Shown here one piece after another: positions 35,111-60,241 of a DNA stretch of 64,000 nucleotides. The notes under the pieces were generated by a model. That model was not told the DNA's origin, searched no databases, and saw only the letters and a program-made list of their open reading frames with translations. The stretch's first letter is position 1. Every line of letters begins with the position of its first letter. The stretch is from positions 1 through 64,000 of the forward strand of contig NZ_CAJXJS010000016.1 of assembly GCF_913055165.1 (NCBI RefSeq), written 5' to 3'. This stretch comes from an uncultured Devosia sp. GTDB taxonomy: Bacteria; Pseudomonadota; Alphaproteobacteria; Rhizobiales; Devosiaceae. Position numbers and translations under genes: made by a program.

Positions 35111-36067
35111 GTGAGCGCACGTTATCTGGTAACCGGTGCCAACGGCTTTGTTGGCAGGGCGGTCTGCAGGGCCCTGCAGGACCATGGTGCCCAGGCGCGT
35201 GGCGTCGTGCGCATCGGTGCCGAGCCGGGGCCGGGTATTGACGCCTTGCGTTTGGATTTGTTGGACGCCGAGAAGCTCCCCCGCGCGGTAGACGGCTGCG
35301 AGGTGGTCATTCATCTTGCCGGCGCAGCCCACGGCAAGCTCGGCCGCTCGGCCGACCTGGAGGCGTTCCGCCGCGTCAACACCCGCGCAACGCTCGATCT
35401 TGCGGCGGCTGCCCAGGCTGCGGGCGCCAGACGCTTTGTCTTCGTCAGCACAATCGGAGTGCATGGAAGCCTTGGCAGAAGAGCGGCGATCACGGAAGCC
35501 AGTCCGGAAGCACCCAATACATATTACGGGCAGTCAAAATGCGAGGCTGAACACGGACTGCGCGCGTTGCTGAGCACTTCGGGTATGGAATTGTGCATTG
35601 TTCGTCCACCGCTAGTTTATGGACCGGATGCCCCCGGAAATTTCAGATTGCTCCTGAAATTGGCCGCGACAGGCATACCCCTTCCCCTGGCGTCGGTGCG
35701 CAATCGGCGAAGCCTGATTGCACTCACGAATCTTGTCCACTTTCTCGAACTTTGTTCCGTCCATCCGGCAGCCGCCGGCCAAACCTTTGTCGTTTCGGAT
35801 CAGCAGGATGTTTCAACGCCAGAAATTCTACAGCATATTTGGTGCGGTATGAGCCTACGGCCCAGGCTGGTCCCTTTGCCGCCGCAATTGTTGCACCTGG
35901 CGGCTGCCCTGTTTGGCAAGCGAACGATGGTGCGCCAGTTGACGGACTCGCTGTGGATCGACACCGAAAAATCCTCCAGACTGCTAGGGTGGTCCGCCCC
36001 GCAAAACGCCGCCGAGGCGCTGGCGGCGGCCGGCAGGGATTATCTGGGCCTGAAGGACAGAACATGA
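35111..36067 (+). CDS. NAD-dependent epimerase/dehydratase (extended SDR)
   Basis: The 318-residue protein has the cofactor loop YLVTGANGFVGRAVCRAL, IHLAGAAHGKLGRSADLEAF, catalytic Ser in FVSTIGVHGS and Tyr-Lys in YYGQSKCEAEHGL. It resembles WbpV/FnlB-type 4-ketoreductases or epimerases that act together with an initiating WbpL-type transferase. Such enzymes reduce UDP-4-keto-6-deoxy-HexNAc made by WbpM-type dehydratases, and one is encoded at 58316-60241. The start is a GTG at 35111. The exact reaction is inferred. Confidence 0.8.
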   Translation: MSARYLVTGANGFVGRAVCRALQDHGAQARGVVRIGAEPGPGIDALRLDLLDAEKLPRAVDGCEVVIHLAGAAHGKLGRSADLEAFRRVNTRATLDLAAAAQAAGARRFVFVSTIGVHGSLGRRAAITEASPEAPNTYYGQSKCEAEHGLRALLSTSGMELCIVRPPLVYGPDAPGNFRLLLKLAATGIPLPLASVRNRRSLIALTNLVHFLELCSVHPAAAGQTFVVSDQQDVSTPEILQHIWCGMSLRPRLVPLPPQLLHLAAALFGKRTMVRQLTDSLWIDTEKSSRLLGWSAPQNAAEALAAAGRDYLGLKDRT

Positions 36068-39059: not shown

Positions 39060-40100
39060 ATGAGCACATTCTACATCAACGACCGCCCGGTCGGGCCGGA
39101 GCATCCGCCGCTGGTGCTGGCCGAAGTGGGCATCAATCATGAAGGCAAGATCGACAAGGCGATCCAGTTGGTGGACGCAGCCGTTGCCGTCGGCGCCGAG
39201 GTGGTGAAGTTTCAGTGCCACATTACCGAGAAAGAGATGATCCCGACCGATATGACGCCGGGCGCCATATCCACAGAACGGTTGTGGGATATCATCAAGC
39301 GCTGTGAGCTGACGGCGTCCGAAGAAGCACAGGTCAAGGACTACTGCGCTGAAAAGGGCATCATTTACCTGTCTACGCCGTTTTCGCGGGAAGCGGCCGA
39401 CCGGCTCAACGAGTTCGGCGTGGGCGCATTCAAGATTGGCTCGGGAGAGTGCAACAATCACCCGTTGCTCAACCATGTGGCCGCCATGGGCAAGCCGATG
39501 ATTGTCTCGACCGGCATGAATGACATCCAATCGGTCCGCAAGACGGTCGCGATCCTGGAGAACCATCGCGTCCCTTACGCCCTGCTGCATTGCACCAGCA
39601 TGTACCCCACCCCCTACGATCAGGTCCGGCTGAACGCAATCACCGACCTGCAGCAGGCGTTTCCGGGTATTCCGATCGGCTCGTCGGACCATTCAATGGG
39701 CATCTGGACTGCCTTGGGTGCAGTCGCGCTGGGCGCCTGCATCCTCGAGAAGCATTTCACTATCTCGCGATCGTGGCCGGGCCCGGATACCGGTATTTCC
39801 ATTGAACCCGACGAACTGGCCGACCTCGTGCAAGGTTCGCGCGCGGTTTGGGAGGCCATGGGCGGGAGCAAATCCATATTGCCCGAAGAAAAGCCGGTGA
39901 TCGAGTTTGCCTATGCCACGGTGGTGACCACCGCTCCGATCGCCGCAGGCGAGGCCTTCACCCGCGATAATATCTGGGTCAAGCGTCCGGGAACGGGCAA
40001 GATCCTCGCGGAGCAATATGAAAGCGTAATCGGCAAACGTGCCGCGCAGGCGTTGCCGGCCGACGTACATGTCAACCCCGAACACGTGGCGGATTTCTAG
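39060..40100 (+). CDS. legI: N-acetylneuraminate/legionaminate synthase family protein (NeuB/LegI)
   Basis: The enzyme condenses a ManNAc-type hexose with phosphoenolpyruvate to give a nine-carbon nonulosonic acid. The 346-residue protein has the NeuB barrel (VLAEVGINHEGKIDKAIQLV, EVVKFQCH, LSTPFSREAADRLNEFGVGA, FKIGSGECNNHPLLNHVA, GSSDHSMGIWTALGAVALGA with metal-binding residues) and a C-terminal SAF/antifreeze-like domain (about 285-345). The LegB, LegG, PtmE and LegF homologues at 49.4-54.3 kb show that a nonulosonate pathway is present. Legionaminate synthase is more likely than sialate synthase on this evidence, but see the missing LegC/LegH. Confidence 0.88.
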   Translation: MSTFYINDRPVGPEHPPLVLAEVGINHEGKIDKAIQLVDAAVAVGAEVVKFQCHITEKEMIPTDMTPGAISTERLWDIIKRCELTASEEAQVKDYCAEKGIIYLSTPFSREAADRLNEFGVGAFKIGSGECNNHPLLNHVAAMGKPMIVSTGMNDIQSVRKTVAILENHRVPYALLHCTSMYPTPYDQVRLNAITDLQQAFPGIPIGSSDHSMGIWTALGAVALGACILEKHFTISRSWPGPDTGISIEPDELADLVQGSRAVWEAMGGSKSILPEEKPVIEFAYATVVTTAPIAAGEAFTRDNIWVKRPGTGKILAEQYESVIGKRAAQALPADVHVNPEHVADF

Positions 40101-46144: not shown

Positions 46145-47184
46145 AGCGTTTCATTGTGAAGCTCACTCGGGGGATTCCCGTTTTGGTTGATCTGTAATTC
46201 AAGTTGATGCTGGATTGGAGGCCAGCATCGATGACGGGACCTCTTTCGCGTGATCTTCGAGAGCGTGTTGTGGCGGCGGTGTTGGCCGGGGATAGCTGTC
46301 GAACGGCAGCGAGCCGATTTGATGTTTCGGTGTCGTCGGCCATCAAGTGGAGTCGGCGCTATCGGCTGACGGGCTCGGTAGCGCTCGGCCAAATGGGCGG
46401 ACATCGCCGACCGGTTCTGGCGGATCCCGCGCTTTCATTCTGGAGCGGATCGCGCAAACCCCACACCTGACGCTGCATTGTCTGAAGGATGAGCTGGCGG
46501 CGCGTGGGGTGAAGGTGTCCCATAATGCGGTGTGGATGTTCATGAAGCGCGAGGGGCTGAGCCTTAAAAAAAGTCCCGTTCGCGTTTGAGCAAGGCCATG
46601 CAGCCGTCGCCCGGCGGCGCAAACGCTGGAAGTCCATCCAGCCCCATCTCGATCCCCAGCGACTGGTGTTCATCGACGAGACGTGGATCAAGACCAACAT
46701 GGCCCCGCTCCGCGGCTGGAGCGCAAAGGGCGGTGGTTGCGCGGCTACGCCCCCCAGGGCCAATGGCGAACCATGACCTTCGTGGCGGCCCTGCGCTGCG
46801 ATGGGGTCGTCGCTCCCTGTGTCTTCGATGGTCCGATCAACGGGGTCAGCTTCCGCGCCAGGGTCGCCCAGCAACTGCTCGACACGATCGGCCCCGGCGA
46901 CATTGTTGTGATGGACAATTGGGGCAGCCACAAATCCATCGAGATCGGCCGCGCCATACGTGCTCGTGGCGCAAGACTTTGGTATCTGCCTGCCTACTCC
47001 CCCGACCTCAATCCAATCGAGCAGGCCTTCGCCAAGATCAAGCACTGGATGCGCATAGCCCAGCGCCGATCCGTTGACGATACCTGGCAACAGATCGGCA
47101 AACTCGTCCAGACAATCGCTCCCGCAAAATGCCAAAACTACATCGCAAACGCAGGATATGGAGCCACCTAAACGTGAAACGCTC
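46144..47184 (+). mobile_element. IS630 family insertion sequence, 1041 bp
   Basis: The ends are inverted repeats, GAGCGTTTCA at 46144 and its complement TGAAACGCTC ending at 47184, flanked by TA on both sides (46142-46143 and 47185-47186), the target duplicated by IS630/Tc1 elements. The content is a single frameshifted transposase. The element separates the plus-strand polysaccharide block from the minus-strand operon, and it sits exactly in the stop codon of a methyltransferase without changing it. Confidence 0.92.
46231..47171 (+). pseudogene. IS630-type transposase, broken by frameshifts
   Basis: The reading frame changes several times. Frame 1 gives DLRERVVAAVLAGDSCRTAA and VALGQMGGHRR to about 46415. 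The frame then drops by one to AFILERIAQTPHLTLHCLKD and VKVSHNAVWMFMKREGLSLK, moves on by one at a run of seven A (46566-46572) to FEQGHAAVARRRKRW and RLVFIDETWIKTNMAPLRGW, and drops again near 46725 to LRGYAPQGQWRTMTFVAALR, VVMDNWGSHKS and YSPDLNPIEQAFAKIKHWM. The three catalytic acids (DET, DNWGSH, NPIEQ) are all present. One shift could be programmed, as in some IS630 members, but three changes suggest that the transposase is inactive. Confidence 0.85.
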
Positions 47185-47209: not shown

Positions 47210-47890
47210 CTATTTTGACTTGATGAAGCGCCGCGCCAGTTTTCCCATGCCTTCGCGCAGGGTCAGGTCGAAGCTGTTGCGGCCGCCATTCGCGGGATCC
47301 CATGGCGTTCCCGCCAGCCGCTGGCGCCAGCGTTCCGGGCTGCGGGTGGCGACGCACAGGTGATAGATCGCTTCGCCGCGGCCGTGGTTGGACGTAGTCA
47401 GAACCGGCTCGAGGCCATGGTGGCGAAAGAGTCGTTCGAGCCCGAGCGGTGTGAACCGCCAGAAGTCGGAGAAGCTCTCGGTGGTGTGCTGTTCCTGCAG
47501 AAACGGCACGACCACCACGACCGTATCGCGCGACATGGCGCACAGATTTCTGGTCGCGGCAAAAACGTCAAATACGTGCTCGAGCGTGGTATGGTTGAGT
47601 ACCACGTCGTAGGCTTGGTGCAGCGTCTGCGGGAGGTCCGCCTCCAGGTCTAGGCGGACTTCACCTGGCACACCTTCGCCGCGCTCACCACCGTAGTTGG
47701 ATACGTCATACCGGCGCACATTGGGGAAATAGTCGCGGTAGTGCCCGCCCTGCTTGTCCTCATCGAGCCAGCCGCTGACATTGATCATGTCGCCCTCAAA
47801 TAGCGGACCGAGCTTGCGCAGGACATCGTTGGACCATAGCCGCGGCAGGCGAAAGCGGTGGTCTTGCAGAAACCGGGGTAGGTCGGCCAT
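47210..47890 (-). CDS. class I SAM-dependent methyltransferase-like protein
   Basis: The protein has 226 residues from the ATG at 47890, which shares one base with the stop of the gene upstream (TGATG). A GTG two codons earlier is an alternative. It has MINVSGWLDEDKQGGHYRDY, RRYDVSNYGGERGEG, YDVVLNHTTLEHVFDVFAAT and VVVVPFLQEQHTTESFSDFW, the core of a methyltransferase family often found in capsule and O-antigen loci. The classical glycine-rich motif I is degenerate here. It is the last gene of the minus-strand nonulosonate operon. Confidence 0.78.
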   Translation of the reverse strand: MADLPRFLQDHRFRLPRLWSNDVLRKLGPLFEGDMINVSGWLDEDKQGGHYRDYFPNVRRYDVSNYGGERGEGVPGEVRLDLEADLPQTLHQAYDVVLNHTTLEHVFDVFAATRNLCAMSRDTVVVVVPFLQEQHTTESFSDFWRFTPLGLERLFRHHGLEPVLTTSNHGRGEAIYHLCVATRSPERWRQRLAGTPWDPANGGRNSFDLTLREGMGKLARRFIKSK

Positions 47891-49455
47891 CACCACACTC
47901 CGTCGATGGATCGCGTCGCGGCAGGCGCAGCAATTTGGGAATAGAACCGCAACAGGTAATGTGCCAGCGTCTTCGCTTCGCCTTCGAAATCCGACGATCG
48001 TTCGGTATGAACGTTCGCCTTGGCCAGCAGAGTCGAATAGAGCTGGATGCTCTCCGAGTTGGCAAAGGAAGCGGCGACATAGCGCTCGAGCGCTGCGTCG
48101 TCCCGGCCATAGCTGCGGAGAAGATCCTTGGCGTCGGCAACCAGATTGCGCGGATCTGTCACCCGCCGCACCATAGTGGGCGGCAATGCATTATAAGGAC
48201 AGTCGCCGAAGGTGAGCACTGGCCGGCCAATAATGGCTGCCTCCAACGCAATCGAACCGGTAATCACCGCCACCATCGCGGCATTCTGGATAAGCAGCCG
48301 GGCGTCCAGCGACGGCTTGACGAGCCGCACGCGCGGAATATTGAGCAACGACCGGTAGTAGTCCATGGAACGCTTCCCCACCATCCAGGGATGTTCCTTG
48401 ACCAGCAGAATTTGGTCGGCCGGTAGGCACATAGCCAAAGCGCGGATCACTTCGATCTGGTTGACATAGGGCCTGCCGTAGACCAGCAGCGACACTTCTG
48501 GCTCGGTATGGAGCGGGAAGAAAGTGTAGCGGGTAGAAGCGAGCTTGGTCTCCGGGAAGTAGGCCGCCGCCAGCGATCGCCGCGATAGACGCGCCCGCAT
48601 CGGGTTGATCACGGCCGAATGTAGCAGCATCGTAGTGGGATTCACCACATGGTTGTCGGAATGACTCAGGGTTCGCCGGTAATCCCGATGGTTGGCGATG
48701 GTGGCCCGCAGCGCCGCGAGCGGAGACCGTCGCGCCCGGTTGAGCTTGAGCGCGGGCTTGTCCGAGGCCCTGACCACGCCCTCGTAGCGGCCATGGACCT
48801 CGCGCACCCGCTGAATATGCGCCCTGGCCGCCTCGCGATGCGGTGCCATGGCAATTTCATCTTGCATGGCCTCAAGAAATTCCGGCGCAGGATCATTGAG
48901 ACGCGTGGCAAAGCTGACGCGGTCGCTGATCCTTGTGGGGCGAAGGTTGAGCACGGCGAGCTTGCGCGAGCGAGCCACCAGGTAGGCCAGGTAGTCGAGG
49001 AAAGTCACGCAGATAAACCCCACAAGGGCTTCGGGGCGCAGCTCATCGAACAGCGCCTCCACGCGCCGAACGCCCTCGGCCAGTATCGAGAGCATGGCGT
49101 CGTCGCCAAACCGGCGGCGGTAATCCTGGGTGAATGTGCAGTCCGGGCCCATCCAGAGCCGGCGGTCCGCAACGAGCGCGCCGAACAGGCCCGCATCACC
49201 GCCCAACTGGGCTTCCTTGCTCGCTAGCCAGTCCGCGTCGGGTGGCGCCGCGGTCTTGGCGGTGACTTCCCATTCCTTGAGCAGGCTGTGTCCTTGCGAG
49301 GCGAAGCCGGGGTTGTCACGGGTGTACTTGGCGAATGCCCAGCGGTCCGAAACAATAAAGCCTGCGGCGTCGCACTGGCCGAGCTGCTGCAGTTCGTTCC
49401 GAACGCTTTCGAAGACCTTGAGGCTCTCACTCTGAGCGCAGAACAGAATTCTCAT
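47890..49455 (-). CDS. capsular polysaccharide synthesis-like protein (KpsS/KpsC-type domain)
   Basis: The 521-residue protein has a C-terminal domain typical of the capsule-synthesis superfamily: SLLVYGRPYVNQIEVIRALA, DQILLVKEHPWMVGKRSMDY, IPRVRLVKPSLDARLLIQNA, and VITGSIALEAAIIGRPVLTF. Known members (KpsS, KpsC) are beta-Kdo transferases that use CMP-activated sugars. It overlaps legB by 4 bp within the nonulosonate operon, so it is a good candidate for the transferase that uses the CMP-nonulosonate. The N-terminal half is not recognised beyond a possible GT-B fold. Function is inferred. Confidence 0.7.
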   Translation of the reverse strand: MRILFCAQSESLKVFESVRNELQQLGQCDAAGFIVSDRWAFAKYTRDNPGFASQGHSLLKEWEVTAKTAAPPDADWLASKEAQLGGDAGLFGALVADRRLWMGPDCTFTQDYRRRFGDDAMLSILAEGVRRVEALFDELRPEALVGFICVTFLDYLAYLVARSRKLAVLNLRPTRISDRVSFATRLNDPAPEFLEAMQDEIAMAPHREAARAHIQRVREVHGRYEGVVRASDKPALKLNRARRSPLAALRATIANHRDYRRTLSHSDNHVVNPTTMLLHSAVINPMRARLSRRSLAAAYFPETKLASTRYTFFPLHTEPEVSLLVYGRPYVNQIEVIRALAMCLPADQILLVKEHPWMVGKRSMDYYRSLLNIPRVRLVKPSLDARLLIQNAAMVAVITGSIALEAAIIGRPVLTFGDCPYNALPPTMVRRVTDPRNLVADAKDLLRSYGRDDAALERYVAASFANSESIQLYSTLLAKANVHTERSSDFEGEAKTLAHYLLRFYSQIAAPAATRSIDGVW

Positions 49456-50453
49456 CGGCTGTAGCGATCAACATCGAAGTGTTGCAGGTTGCGGCAGATC
49501 CACTCATAGGTTCGCGCAAGTCCGTCGGCGAAGGATACTTGCGGCCTCCAATCGGTCATGCCGGTAATCTTGCTGTTGTCGCACAGGAGCCGGTCCACCT
49601 CGCTTTTTGCCGGCCGGATTCGCTCGGGATCCTGCTCAATGTGCACTTGCACACCTGCAATGCCGGACAAGATCTCAACGACTTTGGCGATCGTATGCTC
49701 TTCGCCTGAACCGATATTGATCGTCTCACCCATGGCCGCATCGGACAGGGCCAGGGCGCACATGCCAAGGGCGGTGTCCGAAGCATAGTTGAAATCGCGG
49801 CTGGGCGTAACCGACCCCATTGAGAGCCGTGTCTTGCCTGCAGCGATCTGGCTGGCGATCGTGGGGATAACGGCGCGTGCGCTTTGGCGCGGGCCATAGG
49901 TGTTGAACGGGCGAGCGATCACCAGCGGCAGTTCAAAGCTCAGGTGATAGGATTCCGCCATCTTGTCAGCCGCAATCTTGGAGGCCGAGTAGGGCGACTG
50001 ACCGACCAGAGGATGCTCTTCGCTAATCGGCACGAATTGCGCTGTGCCGTAGACTTCCGAAGTCGAAACGTGAACAAGACGATCGAGGGAGTCACTGGCG
50101 CGGCAGGCCTCAAGTACGTTGGTGGCGCCAATGATGTTTGTATCGACATAGGAGCGCGGAGCCAGGTAGCTATAGGGAATGGCGATCAGGCTCGACAGAT
50201 GGAATACGTACTGTTTCCCTGCCGCCAGCGCCCGGATCCGCTCGGCGTCGCGAATATCGCCCACCTGCAGATCGACCTCCCGTAAAATCTGCGAAGGTAT
50301 GTCCTTCAGCCAGCCAATCTCATTCCAAGAATTATAGAGCACCAAGGCCGTTACCTTGGCGCCGCGGCTTACCAGCAACTCGGTGAGATGGCTTCCGATG
50401 AAGCCATCCGCGCCTGTAATTAGAACAGTCGAGCCGGAAAAGTCTTTGGGCAT
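49452..50453 (-). CDS. legB: nucleoside-diphosphate HexNAc 4,6-dehydratase (LegB family)
   Basis: LegB turns GDP-GlcNAc into GDP-2-acetamido-2,6-dideoxy-4-keto-hexose, the first dedicated step to legionaminic acid. The 333-residue extended SDR has ITGADGFIGSHLTELLVSRG, YVFHLSSLIAIPYSYLAPRS, STSEVYGTAQFVPISEEHPL and YSASKIAADKMAESYHLSFE, close to the LegB family. I start it at the ATG at 50453, two bases after the stop of the ptmE-like gene. The operon partners fit the GDP-linked legionaminic route. Confidence 0.88.
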   Translation of the reverse strand: MPKDFSGSTVLITGADGFIGSHLTELLVSRGAKVTALVLYNSWNEIGWLKDIPSQILREVDLQVGDIRDAERIRALAAGKQYVFHLSSLIAIPYSYLAPRSYVDTNIIGATNVLEACRASDSLDRLVHVSTSEVYGTAQFVPISEEHPLVGQSPYSASKIAADKMAESYHLSFELPLVIARPFNTYGPRQSARAVIPTIASQIAAGKTRLSMGSVTPSRDFNYASDTALGMCALALSDAAMGETINIGSGEEHTIAKVVEILSGIAGVQVHIEQDPERIRPAKSEVDRLLCDNSKITGMTDWRPQVSFADGLARTYEWICRNLQHFDVDRYSR

Positions 50454-50454
50454 G

Positions 50455-51510
50455 TCAGTTTTCTTTCTGTCCAAAAAGCGCCCGCACCCGCTCAAGATCG
50501 TCGAGAGTGCCTATATCGCTCCAGAATTCGTGTAATGGATACGCGATCACTTTCAGATTCGCTGCAATACATTCTTCCATCAAGTCGGTCATATTGTAGA
50601 AGTTCCTCGTTGGCACCCTGCTGACTGCCTCTTCCGACAGGACGTAGATGCCGGCGTTGCACAAAAAGCGCTGCGAGGGTTTCTCCTCGATTGCGGTCAC
50701 CTGGCCATCCAGGCGCGTCGACAGCACGCCGAAAGGAATCTTCACGATATGATCGACCGTGGCAACGGTGAGCGCGGCGCCTTCTTGGGCGTGAAACTGC
50801 GCCAGTGACCCGAAATCGCAACTGGTGACGAGATCGCCGTTCATGACAATCATGCTTCCCCCAACTTCGACAAGCGAGAGCGGCCCCGCAGTGCCAAGCG
50901 GCGTGGTCTCGCGCAGATATTCGATGGAAACACCGAAGGCGGCGCCATCGCCGAAATGGCGTTCGATCTGTTCGCTGAGGTAGTTGACCGACATCAGGAT
51001 GCGCTCGATGCCCGAGCTCTTGAGGCGGCGCACCTGCCGCTCCAACACGGGCATCTCCCCCACCTCCACCATGGGCTTCGGGATGGTCTCGGTCAGCGGG
51101 CGGAGCCTCCGGCCCTCGCCACCAGCCATGATCACTGCGGTTTTGATCGGCGTTTCGTGAAACGCCATATCGTCCTGGTAACCCAGATCTGTCAGGTGCA
51201 CGATGCGCAAAAAGCGCCCTTCGCCATCCACCACCGGTGCTGCCAAGACGTTGCGCTCCTTGAGGGCGCGGACAATGTCTTGCTCCCGCCAACCAGGCCT
51301 GACCACGACAGGAGTGGCGTTCATGAGCATTTTGGCCGCGACGTTCATAGTTGCGCCCCGCAATAAGGCCCGACGCACATCCCCATCGGTGATCGTGCCT
51401 AGCACATGCTGCTGACCGTCGACGATAACAGCCAACCGGCGCCGGCTCTGCTCTATCGCCGTTACCGCGTCGAGCAGGGAGGCTTCCGGTCCAAGCGCCC
51501 GCTCACTCAT
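50455..51510 (-). CDS. ptmE: CBS-domain nucleotidyltransferase, probable glucosamine-1-phosphate guanylyltransferase (PtmE-like)
   Basis: The 351-residue protein has two CBS motifs in its first 120 residues (LAVIVDGQQHVLGTITDGDV, VLAAPVVDGEGRFLRIVHLT), then a nucleotidyltransferase domain starting AVIMAGGEGRRLRPLTETIP and KPMVEVGEMPVLERQVRRLK, with MIVMNGDLVTSCDFGSLAQF and EFWSDIGTLDDLERVRALFG. This is the architecture of Campylobacter PtmE, which supplies GDP-glucosamine for legionaminic acid. The ATG at 51510 overlaps the legG stop (ATGA). The frame continues 57 codons upstream inside legG. Confidence 0.88.
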   Translation of the reverse strand: MSERALGPEASLLDAVTAIEQSRRRLAVIVDGQQHVLGTITDGDVRRALLRGATMNVAAKMLMNATPVVVRPGWREQDIVRALKERNVLAAPVVDGEGRFLRIVHLTDLGYQDDMAFHETPIKTAVIMAGGEGRRLRPLTETIPKPMVEVGEMPVLERQVRRLKSSGIERILMSVNYLSEQIERHFGDGAAFGVSIEYLRETTPLGTAGPLSLVEVGGSMIVMNGDLVTSCDFGSLAQFHAQEGAALTVATVDHIVKIPFGVLSTRLDGQVTAIEEKPSQRFLCNAGIYVLSEEAVSRVPTRNFYNMTDLMEECIAANLKVIAYPLHEFWSDIGTLDDLERVRALFGQKEN

Positions 51511-52727
51511 CGAAACCAGCCATCCTGGCTGCGCCCTTCCAACATCATCCGCTTGCGAATAAGGCTCTGGTCGAGCGAGACTTCGGCGAGCACCTTTGCG
51601 ACGCACTTGCCTGCACCACCCTTGAAGTAGGGATTGTCGCCGTCGCGGCTCCGCTGCCTGAACTGATCGTCGAACAGGCACTTGTTGACCGCCTCGAACA
51701 CCTGATCGGCGTCATAGTCGGCATCGATCACATTGTCGCCGCGCAGCCTGCCCTGCTGGCGCGAGCCAATGTTGACAGTCGGACAACCAAAGGCCGGCGT
51801 TTCCTTGATGCCGGACGACGAATTGCCCACGCATGCGACACGAATCTGGGGGTTGCGCGCCAGGGCGAGCACGCCGTGATAGAGACTGCGACCTAGCGAC
51901 CGGTGCAACTGCACATTGGCAGGGCGCTGCAGCATGAAAGCTTCAAGTGCGTCCACGATGGTGCGTCCGCCCACATCATTATTGGGATAGGTCAGCACGA
52001 CCTGGACGCCATTCGAGGCCAGGCGGCCCATAGCTTCGAGCACCGGCGCAATCTGGCCGGCTGAAGCTTCGAATTCAGTAGTTATGGAGTGCTGGGTGAA
52101 CAGCACGACCGGCCGCGACAGGTCCAGATCGAGACGCTGCTGCACGTCCCGCTCGCTGGCGAAGCGTCCCTCCTCGATCAAGTCAATGGCCGGGAAACCA
52201 ACATTGTGTACGCGCCAGGGCTCTTCGCCCATGGCCATGACGCGGGTCGCTGCTTGATCGTTGGTGGTAAAGTGGAGATGGGCCAGCTTGGTCATGGCGT
52301 GGCGGACAGAATCATCCAGCGCGCCGCCCTCGGTGATGTCACCACCCTCGATGTGGGCGGTTGGAATGTTCATCTGCGTGGCCGCGATCACTGCGGCAAA
52401 CCCCTCGAAGCGGTCAGCATAGACTACCATTATGTCGGGATTGATACGTTTCAGCGCGCGGCTGATCGAAAGCACGCCGCTGCCGATGGCTACGGCCGTT
52501 GCGACCTTGGAGGTCTCACCCATCTCGATGATAATTTCCTCGTCGATGCGGAAGCCATCCCGCTCGATTTCCTGTCGGGTCGAGCCAAATTCCGGATCGA
52601 GATGCGCTCCGGAAACGATCAGCAAATAACTGAGATCAGGATGTGCCTCTATTGCACGCAGAATGGGGTATTGCAGACCGTATTCGGCGCGATTTCCGGT
52701 GAAGACGGCGATTTTTCGTTTAGTCAT
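51507..52727 (-). CDS. legG: hydrolysing NDP-HexNAc 2-epimerase (LegG/NeuC family)
   Basis: This enzyme removes the nucleotide and inverts C-2, giving a free ManNAc-type sugar for the synthase. The 406-residue GT-B-fold protein has FTGNRAEYGLQYPILRAIEA, VYADRFEGFAAVIAATQMNI, HIEGGDITEGGALDDSVRHA and CVGNSSSGIKETPAFGCPTV with NIGSRQQGRLRGDNVI. These match NeuC/LegG hydrolysing epimerases. I use the ATG at 52727, which overlaps the SDR gene by 8 bp; a TTG four codons upstream is possible. Confidence 0.92.
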   Translation of the reverse strand: MTKRKIAVFTGNRAEYGLQYPILRAIEAHPDLSYLLIVSGAHLDPEFGSTRQEIERDGFRIDEEIIIEMGETSKVATAVAIGSGVLSISRALKRINPDIMVVYADRFEGFAAVIAATQMNIPTAHIEGGDITEGGALDDSVRHAMTKLAHLHFTTNDQAATRVMAMGEEPWRVHNVGFPAIDLIEEGRFASERDVQQRLDLDLSRPVVLFTQHSITTEFEASAGQIAPVLEAMGRLASNGVQVVLTYPNNDVGGRTIVDALEAFMLQRPANVQLHRSLGRSLYHGVLALARNPQIRVACVGNSSSGIKETPAFGCPTVNIGSRQQGRLRGDNVIDADYDADQVFEAVNKCLFDDQFRQRSRDGDNPYFKGGAGKCVAKVLAEVSLDQSLIRKRMMLEGRSQDGWFR

Positions 52728-53544
52728 CGGAGGGCGCAATCCTTTGCCTTGCCATTGCAGCTATCATCGTCAGCGGATCTATTTGGGGAGTCCAACCCAG
52801 TTCGTGTCTCGACCTGGAGATATCGAGGCTGAATTCGGGGCTCGGAGAAGCGTCAATCCGGCTGAGAATTTGACGATCCGGTCGCCCCGCTCCCGCGAGA
52901 GCTGCTTGCGCGACCTGCCTTACACTAACAGATTGACCATAGGCCAGATTAAAGACGCCGACAGCTTCTCCCACCACGGCCGAAACGAACCCGCGACCCG
53001 CGTCAGATGCACATAAGAGATCAAGCTGGGCGCCTGCACTGCGAACCAACAAAGGCCCGTGACGGGTGATCTGACCCAGGATATCGCTGCACACGGTGTT
53101 GGCGGCGGGCGGGTCGGACAGGACGTTGGAGAGACGGAGCACGACGCCGCCGCGGCGCAGGCAGACGTTTTCGCTGGCCAGCTTGACCTGGCTGTACGCG
53201 TCGGCGCCGCCGGGAGACCGGTCCTCACTAATCTTCCCCGCCAACTGGCCGTAGACTGCCGTACTGGAGGCGTAGACGATGCGGCGCCAGGGTCGCGCGC
53301 ACAGCGCCTCGAATAGGGCCAGCGCCGCCTCGGGCGTCGCGCTGTCGACGCTGTTGCGGTCGGCTGGCTGCGCAAGATGGACCAGGACGTCGCCGTCCGG
53401 CACGTCCCGATAGTCACCAACCTTGATCATATCGGCGCCAGCGCGACTGCGGCTGGCGCCCACCATCACATGGCCAGCGCGTCGCCCGGTCGCCAGGACA
53501 CTGCCGCCGACGATCCCCGAGGCGCCGGTCACGATGACACGCAT
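52720..53544 (-). CDS. extended SDR, possible 4-ketoreductase or epimerase of the nonulosonate pathway
   Basis: The protein has about 274 residues from the ATG at 53544 (MRVIVTGASGIVGGSVLATG); an in-frame ATG at 53565 would add seven residues and overlap legF. It has the cofactor loop, VLVHLAQPADRNSVDSATPE, catalytic Ser in YASSTAVYGQLAG and the Tyr-Lys pair in ADAYSQVKLASENV, so it should be active. The C-terminal half is shorter than in dehydratases and more like RmlD-type reductases or small epimerases. It sits between legF and legG, where canonical legionaminic loci have an aminotransferase and acetyltransferase. Reduction of the 4-keto group is my inference. Confidence 0.75.
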   Translation of the reverse strand: MRVIVTGASGIVGGSVLATGRRAGHVMVGASRSRAGADMIKVGDYRDVPDGDVLVHLAQPADRNSVDSATPEAALALFEALCARPWRRIVYASSTAVYGQLAGKISEDRSPGGADAYSQVKLASENVCLRRGGVVLRLSNVLSDPPAANTVCSDILGQITRHGPLLVRSAGAQLDLLCASDAGRGFVSAVVGEAVGVFNLAYGQSVSVRQVAQAALAGAGRPDRQILSRIDASPSPEFSLDISRSRHELGWTPQIDPLTMIAAMARQRIAPSDD

Positions 53545-53551
53545 CGGTGCG

Positions 53552-54301
53552 TCAGTCCCCGCCATCGGCCCGCAGGCGCCGTTCGAGCAGAAACTCTATG
53601 ATCTGAAAATCCAGCTCGTTGTCGATGTCAAAGGTCTTCTCGGCCGACACCTCGTAGCCGATGACGACGCCTTCAAGCAGGTGGTTGCTGGTGCGCAGAT
53701 AATCCGGCTTCAGCACATAGACCCCTGCAACATGCTCATAGACGGGCGGAGCCGCCTGGCGCGCCAGCACCGTAGGGCCTCTTGACTTCGACATCCTCAA
53801 CGCGCCCGATGCGTCCGGCTCAACCAGGTTGAAATAGGGATTCCGGCGCGCCGGACCCACTGTCATCACGGCATCGACCGCAGTGCGGTTTGCGTCAAAC
53901 AGGCTAACGGCTCCGACATAATCGGAGATCTCAAGCAGGGGATTGGTGCAATCGATATCGACGAATGTGCCAAAGGTTCGCCCGAGGGCTTCCTCGGAAG
54001 CAGATAACGCGTGCTGCCAGACCTGAAATTTTCCCGCCGACGATGTCGCCAGATCGGCCGGACGCCTGAATGGCACCAGCGCCCCTGCCTGCAGCGCTGC
54101 GGCGGCGATATCGTCGGAATCGGTGCTGACAACCACGGCATCAAACAGGCCCGAAGCCAGCGCGCGCTCTATGGTCCACGCAATGACCGGCTTGCCCCGC
54201 AGATTTCTGATGTTCTTTCCGGGTACGCCCTGGCTGCCGCCACGTGCGCCGACAACGCAGAGCCGCGCGCCCTCGACTCCCTGTGCAGATAACACTGTCA
54301 T
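53552..54301 (-). CDS. legF: acylneuraminate cytidylyltransferase (LegF/NeuA family)
   Basis: This enzyme activates the nonulosonic acid with CTP to the CMP-sugar. The 249-residue protein has the family motif CVVGARGGSQGVPGKNIRNL, GKPVIAWTIERALASGLF, VVVSTDSDDIAAAALQAGA, FVDIDCTNPLLEISDYVGAV and a C-terminal FDIDNELDFQIIEFLLERR. It is the first gene of the minus-strand operon. The ATG at 54301 is the family-like start; the frame is open 45 codons upstream, into the promoter region shared with the divergent polymerase gene. Confidence 0.9.
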   Translation of the reverse strand: MTVLSAQGVEGARLCVVGARGGSQGVPGKNIRNLRGKPVIAWTIERALASGLFDAVVVSTDSDDIAAAALQAGALVPFRRPADLATSSAGKFQVWQHALSASEEALGRTFGTFVDIDCTNPLLEISDYVGAVSLFDANRTAVDAVMTVGPARRNPYFNLVEPDASGALRMSKSRGPTVLARQAAPPVYEHVAGVYVLKPDYLRTSNHLLEGVVIGYEVSAEKTFDIDNELDFQIIEFLLERRLRADGGD

Positions 54302-57239: not shown

Positions 57240-58319
57240 TTGGCACAAGACTCTGTCCACGCGTTCGACCCCGAGAAACCTGCCGAATTCATCCATACAG
57301 GTGTGTTGGTGATTATTGTTGTCATCTGCGTGGTATCGGCTCTCTGGACCATTGCCATTACTGCGCTCATCTTGAGGTTTGCCGGGAACCTGAAACTGGT
57401 TCAAGCGGTCAACGATCGATCCTCGCATGTCAGGCCCACGCCCACGGGAGGCGGCGTAGGCTTCGTGACGGCAAGCGCATTGGCCAGCGGCTTCGCCGTG
57501 ACGGCGCTCGGACAGCCGATGCTGGTGCTGACCGTCTTGGCATTGGCGATCGCCGCCCTTGGCCTCGCAGACGATATCCTGGAGCTCAAGGCCGGCACGA
57601 GGTTTGCGATACAGGGTCTTGCCCTCGCCATTCTGGTTTGGCAGCAGCCGATTGAGATGCTTGGGCTGCCGTTGGCTGGTCTGTCCCCCATAGTTGTTGG
57701 CCTGCCGGTGGTCCTGATGGGCTTGTGGTGGGTCAACCTGTTCAACTTCATGGATGGAATTGACGGCCTGGCGGCCAGCCAGGCCCTTCTTATCCTGCTC
57801 GCCTCGTTCGGGCTTGTCATGCTCGGACAGCCGGATGCTGCGGGAGAACCTGTGCTGTGGTGGATGCTTAGCCTGGCAGCGGCGCTGGCAGCCTTCCTGG
57901 TATTCAACTGGCCACCGGCCAGTATATTCATGGGAGACGTGGGCAGCACTTATCTCGCTTTCGTCATTTTCGGCCTGGCACTCGTCTGCGCTGCGTCCGG
58001 TTGGATTGCGCTACCCATCTGGGCCATATTGGGCGCGACGCTGATCGTGGATACAAGCGTGACCCTGATCACACGGATGTCGGCCGGGGAGAGGTGGCTT
58101 GCCGGACATCGGCAACACGCCTATCAGCATCTGTCACGCCATCTTGGAGGGCATCGTACGGTCACACTTCTGTACGGGGCCGTAGTTTTGCTCTGGCTCG
58201 TTCCCATCGCATCACTGGCCCATTTTCAGCCGGGCATTCTGTGGCCCTGCGTGGTCGTGGCCTATCTTCCACTGCTGATCGCGGCAGTGTCGCTCAAGGC
58301 AGGACGTCGCGTGCCATGA
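57240..58319 (+). CDS. undecaprenyl-phosphate HexNAc-1-phosphate transferase family (WecA/WbpL-like)
   Basis: The protein has up to 359 residues and ten or so hydrophobic helices. It has the PNPT superfamily motifs NDRSSHVRPTPTGGGVGFVT, ADDILELKAGTRFAIQGL, NLFNFMDGIDGLAASQAL and NWPPASIFMGDVGSTYLAF with HRQHAYQHL near the end. These are the metal- and lipid-binding residues of enzymes that load the first sugar on undecaprenyl phosphate. The start is uncertain: the frame opens at a TTG at 57240, with later GTG/TTG codons at 57303-57309 just before the first helix. It overlaps the dehydratase gene by 4 bp, as wbpL and wbpM are neighbours in Pseudomonas. Confidence 0.92.
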   Translation: MAQDSVHAFDPEKPAEFIHTGVLVIIVVICVVSALWTIAITALILRFAGNLKLVQAVNDRSSHVRPTPTGGGVGFVTASALASGFAVTALGQPMLVLTVLALAIAALGLADDILELKAGTRFAIQGLALAILVWQQPIEMLGLPLAGLSPIVVGLPVVLMGLWWVNLFNFMDGIDGLAASQALLILLASFGLVMLGQPDAAGEPVLWWMLSLAAALAAFLVFNWPPASIFMGDVGSTYLAFVIFGLALVCAASGWIALPIWAILGATLIVDTSVTLITRMSAGERWLAGHRQHAYQHLSRHLGGHRTVTLLYGAVVLLWLVPIASLAHFQPGILWPCVVVAYLPLLIAAVSLKAGRRVP

Positions 58320-60241
58320 TTAACGGAACCATACAATACATCATCGGCATGCCCCGGCACTGGAAGCGCGTGGTGCAGGTTGGTAGCGATGTCGTCGCGC
58401 TGTGCGTCGTTCTGTGGGGATCCTATTCGCTGCGCTACAACACCTTGTTCGTACCGGATGCGGATCAGGCTTTGCTCATGGCGGCCGCGCCCTGTGTAGC
58501 CTTGCCGATTTTCATCCGCATGGGCCTCTACCGGTCGGTCATCCGGTATCTTCCCGAACGTGCTGTGTGGACCATCTTTCAAGCGATGACCCTGGCCACG
58601 TTGGCCTGGGTATTCGTCGCTTTCCTGACGTCCTTGGCGGTTGGCGAGACGGTACCCCGGTCGGTGCCAATCATCTACTGGGCTCTGGCCACCATTGTGA
58701 TGGTCAGTACACGCTTTGCAGCCAAGATGATCCTCTGGCCCAGAGAGAAAGCGACGTCGGTGGGCGGGCAACTGGTTATTTACGGCGCGGGGAACGCGGG
58801 ACAGCAACTTGCCGCTGCCCTGAGGGGAAGCGGCAAAGGTCTGGTAGTCGGCTTCATTGACGACAATCCCGGCCTGCACGGCCGCGAGGTTGCTGGAATC
58901 CGGGTGTATCACCCCGAGTACCTGCAAACGCTCGTGCGCAACTACGGCGTGGGCGAAGTCATCCTGTGCATGCCGTCCGTCAGCGCACAACGCCGGCAGG
59001 AGCTGTTGGCGAGCTTGACGCCGCTATCGCTGCGGATAAGGATCCTGCCTGCAATTGCCGATATCGCCGCCGGCAAGTACCTCATCAGTCAGGTCCGGGA
59101 AATCGATATCGATGAGCTGCTCGGCCGATCTATCGTGCCCGCTGACGGAAACCTGCTGCGGACCATGATCGAGGGTCGGTCTATCATGGTCACCGGCGCA
59201 GGAGGGTCCATCGGCTCGGAGCTCTGCCGACTTGTTGCGCGTTGGAAACCAGCCCGTCTCGTGCTGTTGGAGGCCAACGAATTTGCGCTTTATCAGATTG
59301 ACCGTGAGCTTCGCAGCGCAGAATTGGCACCGGTTGCAGTCCTCGCGTCCGTACGCGACGGCGAGACCGTTGATGCTACGATCAAGCAGTATGGCATTGA
59401 TGCCATTTTTCATGCCGCGGCTCACAAGCACGTTCCCCTGGTGGAGGAAAATGCCCTTGAAGGCATCCGGAACAATGTATTCGGAACCCAGGTCCTGCTC
59501 GACAGGGCGTTCCATAACGGGGTCAAGAACTTCATTCTCATTTCGTCCGATAAGGCCGTGCGCCCAACAAACGTTATGGGGGCGACAAAGCGCTGGTCGG
59601 AACTGCTGGTTCACAGCTACGCGGCGCGCGCGCAGGCAGAACAGACCGGGCAAAAATTTGCCGCAGTCAGATTTGGCAATGTCTTGGGTTCAAGTGGCTC
59701 GGTCGTTCCGCTGTTCCGGGAGCAGATTGCCAAGGGTGGCCCTGTGACGCTTACCGACGAAGGCATGACTCGCTACTTTATGTCCATCCACGAGGCAGCC
59801 GAACTCATCGTGCAAGCAGGAACGTTGTCTCAGGGAAACGACGTCTTCCTCCTGGACATGGGCAGCCCGATCGCCATCATGGATTTGGCAACGAACATGA
59901 TCAGATTGGCCGGTCTTTCAGTGCGCGATGCGCATAATCCTGCCGGTGACATCCGCATCGACGTGATGGGCAAGCGCCCAGGTGAAAAGATGTTTGAGGA
60001 GCTGTTTTACGATCCGCATACGGTCGAGACGACAAGCCACCCAAAGATCATGCGCGCATCGCCCGCGGCAGCGATGGATATCTCACCTCAGGTAGTCTTG
60101 TTGCGGCGAGCGCTGGAAGCGCGCGACGAGATTGCCGCGAGAAGCATTCTGTTTGACGTGATAGCCGAGGGCAGAAATCCACTTAACGATGCCCCGATGG
60201 ATGTTCAGACAAACCGAACTGCCTCTCAGACAGCAACTTGA
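58316..60241 (+). CDS. membrane-anchored UDP-GlcNAc 4,6-dehydratase (WbpM/CapD/PglF-like)
   Basis: The 641-residue protein has four N-terminal helices, a first Rossmann domain (VIYGAGNAGQQLAAALRGSG at about 155) and a catalytic SDR domain from about 280. That domain has TGAGGSIGSELCRLVARWKP, IFHAAAHKHVPLVEENALEG, FILISSDKAVRPTNVMGATK and RFGNVLGSSGSVVPLFREQI. The catalytic Tyr of ordinary SDRs is Met here (NVMGATK), as in WbpM. The product, UDP-4-keto-6-deoxy-HexNAc, may be the substrate of the epimerase/reductase at 35111. The start is the ATG at 58316 in an ATGA overlap. Confidence 0.94.
   Translation: MINGTIQYIIGMPRHWKRVVQVGSDVVALCVVLWGSYSLRYNTLFVPDADQALLMAAAPCVALPIFIRMGLYRSVIRYLPERAVWTIFQAMTLATLAWVFVAFLTSLAVGETVPRSVPIIYWALATIVMVSTRFAAKMILWPREKATSVGGQLVIYGAGNAGQQLAAALRGSGKGLVVGFIDDNPGLHGREVAGIRVYHPEYLQTLVRNYGVGEVILCMPSVSAQRRQELLASLTPLSLRIRILPAIADIAAGKYLISQVREIDIDELLGRSIVPADGNLLRTMIEGRSIMVTGAGGSIGSELCRLVARWKPARLVLLEANEFALYQIDRELRSAELAPVAVLASVRDGETVDATIKQYGIDAIFHAAAHKHVPLVEENALEGIRNNVFGTQVLLDRAFHNGVKNFILISSDKAVRPTNVMGATKRWSELLVHSYAARAQAEQTGQKFAAVRFGNVLGSSGSVVPLFREQIAKGGPVTLTDEGMTRYFMSIHEAAELIVQAGTLSQGNDVFLLDMGSPIAIMDLATNMIRLAGLSVRDAHNPAGDIRIDVMGKRPGEKMFEELFYDPHTVETTSHPKIMRASPAAAMDISPQVVLLRRALEARDEIAARSILFDVIAEGRNPLNDAPMDVQTNRTASQTAT

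Follow-up and report, generated by a model that had tools for sequence, protein, structure and literature searches.

A 64,000-nucleotide stretch of DNA from an uncultured Devosia sp. (contig NZ_CAJXJS010000016.1; this whole stretch is called the window below) carries on its minus strand, from 54301 to 47890, six tightly packed genes that recall the pathway to the nonulosonate legionaminic acid (Leg). In order, they encode a LegF-like protein, an extended short-chain dehydrogenase/reductase (SDR), LegG, a PtmE-like protein, LegB and a capsule-like protein (Table 1). Neighbouring genes overlap, the LegF-like and SDR genes by 14 bases, with the exception of PtmE and LegB, which lie one base apart. 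A sequence-only reading of the window had named these genes, together with a nonulosonate synthase, and had proposed that the SDR stands in for the aminotransferase LegC and the acetyltransferase LegH. Model scores confirm that the named genes lie at their positions and match the named families. LegB scores 36 bits below the cut-off of 475 for TIGR04180, its best model, and the next model reaches 166, a gap of 273 bits.

Table 1. Features of the window. CMP, cytidine monophosphate; NDP, nucleoside diphosphate; GDP, guanosine diphosphate; GlcNAc, N-acetylglucosamine; HexNAc, N-acetylhexosamine
Feature	Positions	Strand	Evidence and remarks
LegF/PseF-like CMP-nonulosonate cytidylyltransferase	53552-54301	-	PF02348, 71.9 bits; best model TIGR03584, 114.6 bits, under cut-off of 205.7; open frame reaches 54436, ATG at 54301 likely start
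Extended SDR, proposed NDP-4-keto-6-deoxy-GlcNAc 4-reductase in the place of LegC/LegH	52720-53565	-	PF01370, 47.3 bits
LegG/NeuC-type hydrolysing NDP-HexNAc 2-epimerase	51507-52727	-	TIGR03568, 382.8 bits, above cut-off of 235.9
PtmE-like nucleotidyltransferase, proposed supplier of GDP-linked hexosamine	50455-51510	-	PF00483 (NTP_transferase), 135.2 bits; PF00571 (CBS), two copies
LegB, NDP-GlcNAc 4,6-dehydratase	49452-50453	-	TIGR04180, 438.9 bits; motif TSE..Yx3K; open frame reaches 50495, ATG at about 50453, one base past the PtmE stop
Capsule-synthesis-like protein	47890-49455	-	PF05159, 28 bits; 4-base overlap with LegB
Neu-type nonulosonate synthase (LegI of the sequence-only reading)	39060-40100	+	Apart from the cluster; sole NeuB-family gene found in the genome
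Second extended SDR	35111-36067
WecA/MraY-like transferase	57240-58319		Judged by eye
Long WbpM-like dehydratase	58001-60241		PF02719, 374 bits
Open frames resembling a DDE transposase remnant	46586-47171		Judged by eye; within the polysaccharide region

Gene content and the search for LegC and LegH

The legionaminic pathway of Campylobacter has a PtmE step and works on GDP-linked sugars. Its Leg steps run LegB, LegC, LegH, LegG, LegI and LegF, as set out in PMC6137143. The window resembles this pathway in having PtmE-like, LegB, LegG and LegF homologues in one operon. It differs in that no LegC was found, no NeuD-type LegH scores above cut-off, an extended SDR is present instead, and the synthase is of the neuraminic (Neu) type. 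Judged against the canonical pathway, we found the LegB-type dehydratase and neither LegC nor a Leg-type synthase.

The genome to which the window belongs is a 123-contig draft, 94.4% complete. Searched with the LegC model TIGR04181, it gave no match at E ≤ 1e-3. The DegT model PF01041 had seven partial matches, the best of 34 bits and above the Pfam cut-off of 19.8. All seven proteins match other pyridoxal phosphate families at 176-584 bits (Cys/Met metabolism, class V, class I/II twice, serine hydroxymethyltransferase twice and beta-eliminating lyase), and with these reassigned, no DegT-family aminotransferase was found in this genome. The model for NeuD-type LegH, TIGR03570, had 13 matches, none above 160.8 bits and the best at 62.5; GNAT-type LegH was not searched. 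LegC, missing from the window, was thus not found in the draft genome either, and for LegH no match of the NeuD type passes the cut-off. The single match to NeuB PF03102 is the window synthase.

A module conserved across phyla

Among 385 genomes drawn evenly from the class, our own included, strong relatives of the SDR (92-127 bits) occur in five others. Synthase, SDR, LegG and LegB stand together in all five of those loci and PtmE in four (it was not seen in L073/L112). LegG of the window shares 64-66% identity with its counterparts in five other alphaproteobacterial loci. Closer to home, no strong SDR relative (best other match, 47 bits) turned up in 151 genomes, most of them from the genus or family and our own among them. 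Nine plasmid records found by tblastn (25-33% identity) were rejected as orthologues by context; six of them were inspected, and two lie in pseudaminic (Pse) loci (L040, L041) and four elsewhere.

For a broader sample, we scanned genome contigs of 84,980 species with a LegG alignment and kept the best 80 of 85 confirmed loci, so that loci were sampled by LegG and not by the SDR. A locus was counted as an SDR locus when an SDR with a profile score of at least 60 bits lay on the same strand within 1.7 kb of LegG. This holds for 61 of the 80 loci and for the window. The SDR lies within 400 bases of both the synthase and LegG, or overlaps them, in 46 of these 62. L163, where an SDR-family gene adjoins the synthase and not LegG, was left out of the 61. 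The record titles name alpha-, beta-, gamma- and deltaproteobacteria, Elusimicrobia, Omnitrophica, Acidobacteria, KSB1 and Aminicenantes; most loci come from metagenome bins, and single taxon assignments may be wrong. Carriers of the module with strain or species names include Polynucleobacter sp. MWH-HuK1 (L118), Alteromonas sp. KUL42 (L154), Oceanibaculum pacificum (L162) and Catenovulum sediminis (L158); in the examined stretches of the last two, LegF had no match. Chance is an unlikely source of the arrangement seen in the window because the same gene order recurs in other phyla. The module, expected to be an alphaproteobacterial variant, proves to be spread over many phyla, and the gene set itself is borne out: SDR, 4,6-dehydratase, hydrolysing 2-epimerase and synthase occur together. 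Counted over the 45 SDR loci with at least 4 kb on both sides of LegG (44 and the window), a synthase match is present in 44, PtmE (at least 150 bits) in 39 and LegB in 37.

Every one of these 45 well-flanked loci has a 4,6-dehydratase. In 41 it lies in the locus itself (37 LegB and four WbpM/PglF-type), and in L106, L127, L130 and L164 one LegB of 438-511 bits lies elsewhere in the genome. The substitute in L108, L110, L115 and L117 is a PF02719 protein of about 400 residues, placed directly before the SDR or the synthase and bearing the motif TDK..Mx3K, which Table 1 of PMC8987622 gives as the WbpM/PglF motif and lists among C5-retaining enzymes. Homologues of this protein occur in L097 (70% identity) and L123 (56%), both outside the 45. 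The LegB motif TSE..Yx3K is kept in 42 of 45 LegBs, a set that comprises all SDR loci with LegB and not the well-flanked 45; the same Table 1 gives [ST]SExnYx3K as the motif of GDP-mannose 4,6-dehydratase. In the class sample, LegB (E ≤ 1e-80) is found in only 39 of 385 genomes, our own included, yet in all five others with a strong SDR relative. The SDR accompanies a 4,6-dehydratase whatever the dehydratase family. Since all 45 loci have one, LegB or PF02719, the dehydratase family has changed while SDR, LegG and synthase stayed.

LegC is rare in this company. Among the well-flanked SDR loci, a LegC-type match of at least 300 bits occurs in two, L106 and L127, and in L127 it lies 7 kb off on the opposite strand. 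Weaker matches of 132-176 bits are present in L104, L111, L139 and L144, and PseC-type or other aminotransferase matches in L092, L094, L107, L115, L127, L154, L160 and L162. Two loci that came along in the LegG scan, L165 and L170, have the canonical order with LegC and no SDR. Genome-wide, we tested 50 genomes out of the 61 SDR loci at a cut-off of 420 bits, and LegC exceeds it in three (L106, L121 and L127). Seven more have matches to the LegC model of 310-353 bits, under the cut-off; a superfamily member at E ≤ 1e-20 occurs in 49 of the 50 versus 11 of 14 controls. In the L121 genome (G526), a second cluster some 20 kb away from the module, recognised by eye, holds LegC together with a separate synthase, LegG and NeuD-like gene. 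Identity to the window synthase is 36% for this canonical synthase and 57-70% for the module synthases of the five alphaproteobacterial relatives. The related genome G449, a single contig, carries the module and shows no LegC above cut-off.

These counts bear on the idea that the window holds an incomplete or dispersed canonical pathway, with LegC and LegH in sequence missing from the assembly and di-N-acetyl-legionaminic acid as the product. The fragmented and incomplete draft leaves room for it, as does the GNAT-type LegH outside our search, and LegC does follow LegG in L106. We nonetheless rate it as very improbable: 47 of the 50 module genomes lack LegC above cut-off, as does the single-contig G449, and the window synthase is not Leg-type.

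Further observations concern the flanks of the sampled loci. A capsule-like homologue also follows LegB in L107, L121 and L132. LegF often has a classical SDR and a Gfo/Idh-type oxidoreductase as neighbours (L107, L111, L132, L135, L136, L139 and others). L140 and L141, in a Planctomycetota bin and an Elusimicrobia bin, are apparently the same locus, with equal scores and spacing, and at least one of the two bins is probably contaminated. In L153, L155, L156 and L157 (Boseongicola, Kangsaoukella), LegG stands beside PtmE and the examined stretch has no LegB, synthase or SDR match; this pair perhaps reflects another use of GDP-GlcNAc.

The SDR and the synthase

The window SDR had been credited with an intact Ser-Tyr-Lys triad, and the alignment confirms it (S101, Y124, K128). 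In 61 aligned orthologues, column 101 is Ser (45) or Thr (16), and Tyr124 and Lys128 are invariant. The acid/base pair of dehydratases is missing, as column 102 is never Asp, Glu or Lys and column 103 is Glu in only two of 61. By these residues the SDR looks like a reductase or an epimerase, not a dehydratase. Ser or Thr, Tyr and Lys without the acid/base pair is the pattern of 4-reductases; 4-epimerases show it too. Searched against solved chains, the SDR profile matched 143 distinct sequences, with MoeE5 first. Others include GalE-named chains and 4-epimerases, UDP (uridine diphosphate)-glucuronate decarboxylases and the GDP-6-deoxy-D-mannose reductase 6x3b.

The SDR might then act elsewhere, for example as a nucleotide-sugar 4-epimerase or, late in the route, as an oxidoreductase of the nonulosonate, with an unlinked enzyme handling the 4-keto group. 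The chains that the profile matches do bear the names of both 4-epimerases and reductases, and the end of beta2 is acidic in 16 of 61 orthologues. Epimerisation at C4 before LegB would, however, be pointless because LegB oxidises C4, and no other oxidoreductase is as constant as this SDR, the classical SDR and Gfo/Idh genes being present in only part of the loci. We consider this explanation improbable.

The synthase had been read as LegI-type, which does not hold. It shares 50% identity with meningococcal NeuB and 37% with the canonical LegI of L039; it scores 364 bits against TIGR03569, under the cut-off of 399.65. A tree of 73 sequences splits NeuB and 55 module-type synthases, the window's among them, from 15 Leg/Pse-type synthases plus the divergent L142 and L171 (FastTree 1.0, UFBoot 100). 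The same split with L142 and L171 moved to the NeuB side (58 versus 15) has values of 0.388 and 93. For residues, we compared clade A (24 sequences, NeuB counted), clade B (35, window included) and 16 others. The Neu-type His57 is present in all clade A and B synthases except one L137 fragment, and the Neu-type Phe288 in all except L142 and L171; the 16 others have Phe57 in 11 and Phe288 in none. The window synthase has both Neu-type residues. By identity, tree position and these residues it is Neu-type, not Leg-type.

A Neu-type synthase fits a product with a hydroxyl at C-7: a substrate that bears a hydroxyl and not an N-acetyl group at hexose C-4, and no hydroxyl at C-6, suits such an enzyme in a pathway with LegB. 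It also raises the main rival, which is that two pathways share one operon. LegG, synthase and LegF would make CMP-N-acetylneuraminic acid (CMP-Neu5Ac), and PtmE, LegB and the SDR a separate GDP-6-deoxy-hexosamine, e.g., GDP-N-acetylquinovosamine (GDP-QuiNAc), for the same polysaccharide. The window is indeed similar to the NeuC-NeuB-NeuA pathway in its hydrolysing 2-epimerase, which passes the TIGR03568 cut-off, and in its Neu-type synthase. It differs in that the genes of a 4,6-dehydratase and an SDR, which would act in the same route, are tied to the module, and in a cytidylyltransferase nearest to a PseF model.

The substrate-binding residues speak on both sides. Synthase positions 70-85 lie near substrate C4-C6 (PMC7371886, section 7). 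Clade A is mostly like NeuB there, with Asn74 and Asn184 each in 22 of 24, NeuB counted. Clade B, the window included, mostly differs at 74, 80 and 184: Asn74 is found in 5 of 35, position 74 being mostly Glu or Lys and Ala in the window, Trp80 in 31 and Ser184 in 34. Dehydratase and 4-reductase pairs that make NDP-QuiNAc are known (PMC4514872), and in two loci, L129 and L152, synthase, LegG and PtmE are present, LegG has no SDR neighbour and no LegB match reaches 250 bits, as expected of a Neu5Ac locus; 4.4 kb upstream in L129 there is a frame resembling an SDR, which scores 139 bits against a LegB. Under this explanation, however, the SDR should belong with LegB, though it touches synthase and LegG in most SDR loci, and independent pathways are not expected to stay together, in the same order, across so many phyla. 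We judge the two-pathway explanation unlikely, if still the foremost of the alternatives.

Meningococcal NeuB itself is nested in clade A of the module synthases, in a clade of eight (FastTree 0.995, UFBoot 100). The nesting suggests that a Neu5Ac synthase arose from or near the module pathway.

Predicted pathway and product

No LegC was found, the module is conserved, the SDR is tied to a dehydratase and the synthase is Neu-type; we therefore favour a ketoreductase and think it likely that the cluster is a variant nonulosonate pathway in which this enzyme replaces both LegC and LegH. From sequence comparison we infer the enzymatic steps, the configuration of the sugar, the cofactor and the use of the product. 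PtmE would supply GDP-GlcN(Ac), and LegB would dehydrate GDP-GlcNAc to a GDP-4-keto-6-deoxy sugar. The SDR would reduce the 4-keto group with NAD(P)H to GDP-6-deoxy-HexNAc, the gluco form (QuiNAc) being more likely than the galacto form. LegG would then hydrolyse and epimerise this sugar to free 6-deoxy-N-acetylmannosamine (6-deoxy-ManNAc), to which the Neu-type synthase would add phosphoenolpyruvate, and LegF would activate the product with CMP. The predicted outcome is a CMP-5-acetamido-3,5,9-trideoxy-nonulosonate with a hydroxyl at C-7, 9-deoxy-Neu5Ac or its 7-epimer, for a surface polysaccharide. Reduction of the 4-keto group toward a 7-hydroxy, 9-deoxy nonulosonate is the best reading of the comparative evidence. 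This part of the earlier proposal gains from the related loci; its Leg-type synthase, its restriction to alphaproteobacteria and its match to fusaminic acid are not supported.

Several observations weigh against this pathway. Besides L129 and L152, there are L140 and L141, which have LegB and no SDR beside LegG. In L106, LegC (496 bits, TIGR04181) directly follows LegG, and a canonical synthase comes next. The L106, L127 and L121 genomes yielded one LegB each, in L121 that of the module, and this single LegB may serve the Leg route too, in L106 and L127 because those genomes have LegC. No LegB lies in the locus of 14 SDR genomes, and nine of them have none at E ≤ 1e-80; six of the nine carry the PF02719 protein, L096 has a LegB match cut by a contig end, and L113 and L122, on contigs of 4.2-4.3 kb, have genomes without LegB at this threshold. 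Some clade A synthases could take plain ManNAc and make Neu5Ac. The cofactor is ambiguous: the end of beta2 is Arg in 44 of 61 SDRs, from which we considered a preference for NADPH and dropped it, the preceding column being acidic in 16 of 61. Finally, the window SDR is divergent, with 31-36% identity to the five alphaproteobacterial relatives. It has Leu at 181, before the invariant Asp182, where 56 of 61 have Arg, and because of this divergence and the lost Arg this copy may be altered or weakened in function. It also has Ser at 150, where 59 of 61 have Gly.

The reductases of Pseudomonas aeruginosa and Rhizobium etli that act in QuiNAc synthesis are WbpV and WreQ. The second extended SDR of the window presumably resembles them, and with the WecA/MraY-like transferase and the WbpM-like dehydratase it could form a separate route to UDP-QuiNAc and O-antigen priming. 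It was ruled out as a close paralogue of the cluster SDR (33 bits, 30% identity over 145 residues).

Chemical precedent for the proposed step exists. NDP-QuiNAc is made by a 4,6-dehydratase and a 4-ketoreductase, as PMC4514872 describes for Pdeg and Preq of Bacillus cereus and for the reductases of P. aeruginosa and R. etli; Preq makes UDP-QuiNAc with NADPH, and the Rhizobium enzyme uses NADH. The window shares with these systems the logic of a dehydratase and an SDR acting on a 2-acetamido hexose, a likeness to Preq drawn from description and not from sequence. It differs in that the pair is joined to LegG, synthase and LegF. The 6-deoxy-hexosamine of the module probably becomes a nine-carbon sugar and is probably GDP- rather than UDP-linked.

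Fusaminic acid of Fusobacterium nucleatum, which the sequence-only reading had offered as an example of the sugar class, is a 5-acetimidoyl, 3,5,9-trideoxy nonulosonate, tentatively L-glycero-L-gluco (PMC13014188). Compared by structure and not by genes, it is similar to the predicted product in being a 3,5,9-trideoxy nonulosonate with a C-7 hydroxyl. For the module, however, the D series (9-deoxy-Neu5Ac or its 7-epimer) is predicted because LegB and the TDK..Mx3K substitutes are of the C5-retaining type. We set fusaminic acid aside as the product on this poor stereochemical match.

N-acetyl sugar amidotransferase homologues occur in 12 of the 45 well-flanked loci (L093, L094, L102, L103, L105, L106, L115, L118, L127, L130, L151 and L164), and 11 of the 12 also have a HisF-like match. 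The one in L130 was confirmed as a member of the WbuX family; none was matched in the window. The presence of these homologues suggests a 5-acetimidoyl form of the product in those 12 loci.

Among the listed titles and abstract openings of open-access PubMed Central papers, we found none describing this gene set; subscription literature was outside the scope. The module appears to be a widespread nonulosonate pathway that departs from the known kind in one exchanged step and in its predicted product. We lean, by a narrow preference, toward a wider claim: that Proteobacteria, Elusimicrobia, Omnitrophota, Acidobacteria and others have, in addition to Neu, Leg and Pse, another major nonulosonate pathway, in which a dehydratase-reductase pair leads to 9-deoxy-neuraminic acids. 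Meningococcal NeuB may descend from it, and the acetimidoyl form would be a variation on it in the 12 loci above. The type of nonulosonate has been predicted from synthase phylogeny (PMC8053191), which would misread this pathway as one for Neu5Ac.

If the module makes 9-deoxy sialic acids, widespread environmental bacteria may at present be counted as producers of Neu5Ac or as incomplete producers of Leg. The genes would then give a plausible account of how 3,5,9-trideoxy nonulosonates are made, and the module would be a clean case of a pathway that diversified by exchanging an aminotransferase for a reductase. Mass-spectrometric surveys of biofilms and cultures could look for the 293-Da core itself. 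A sialic-acid-like sugar that is one oxygen short may be made by many microbes and missed by gene-based prediction.

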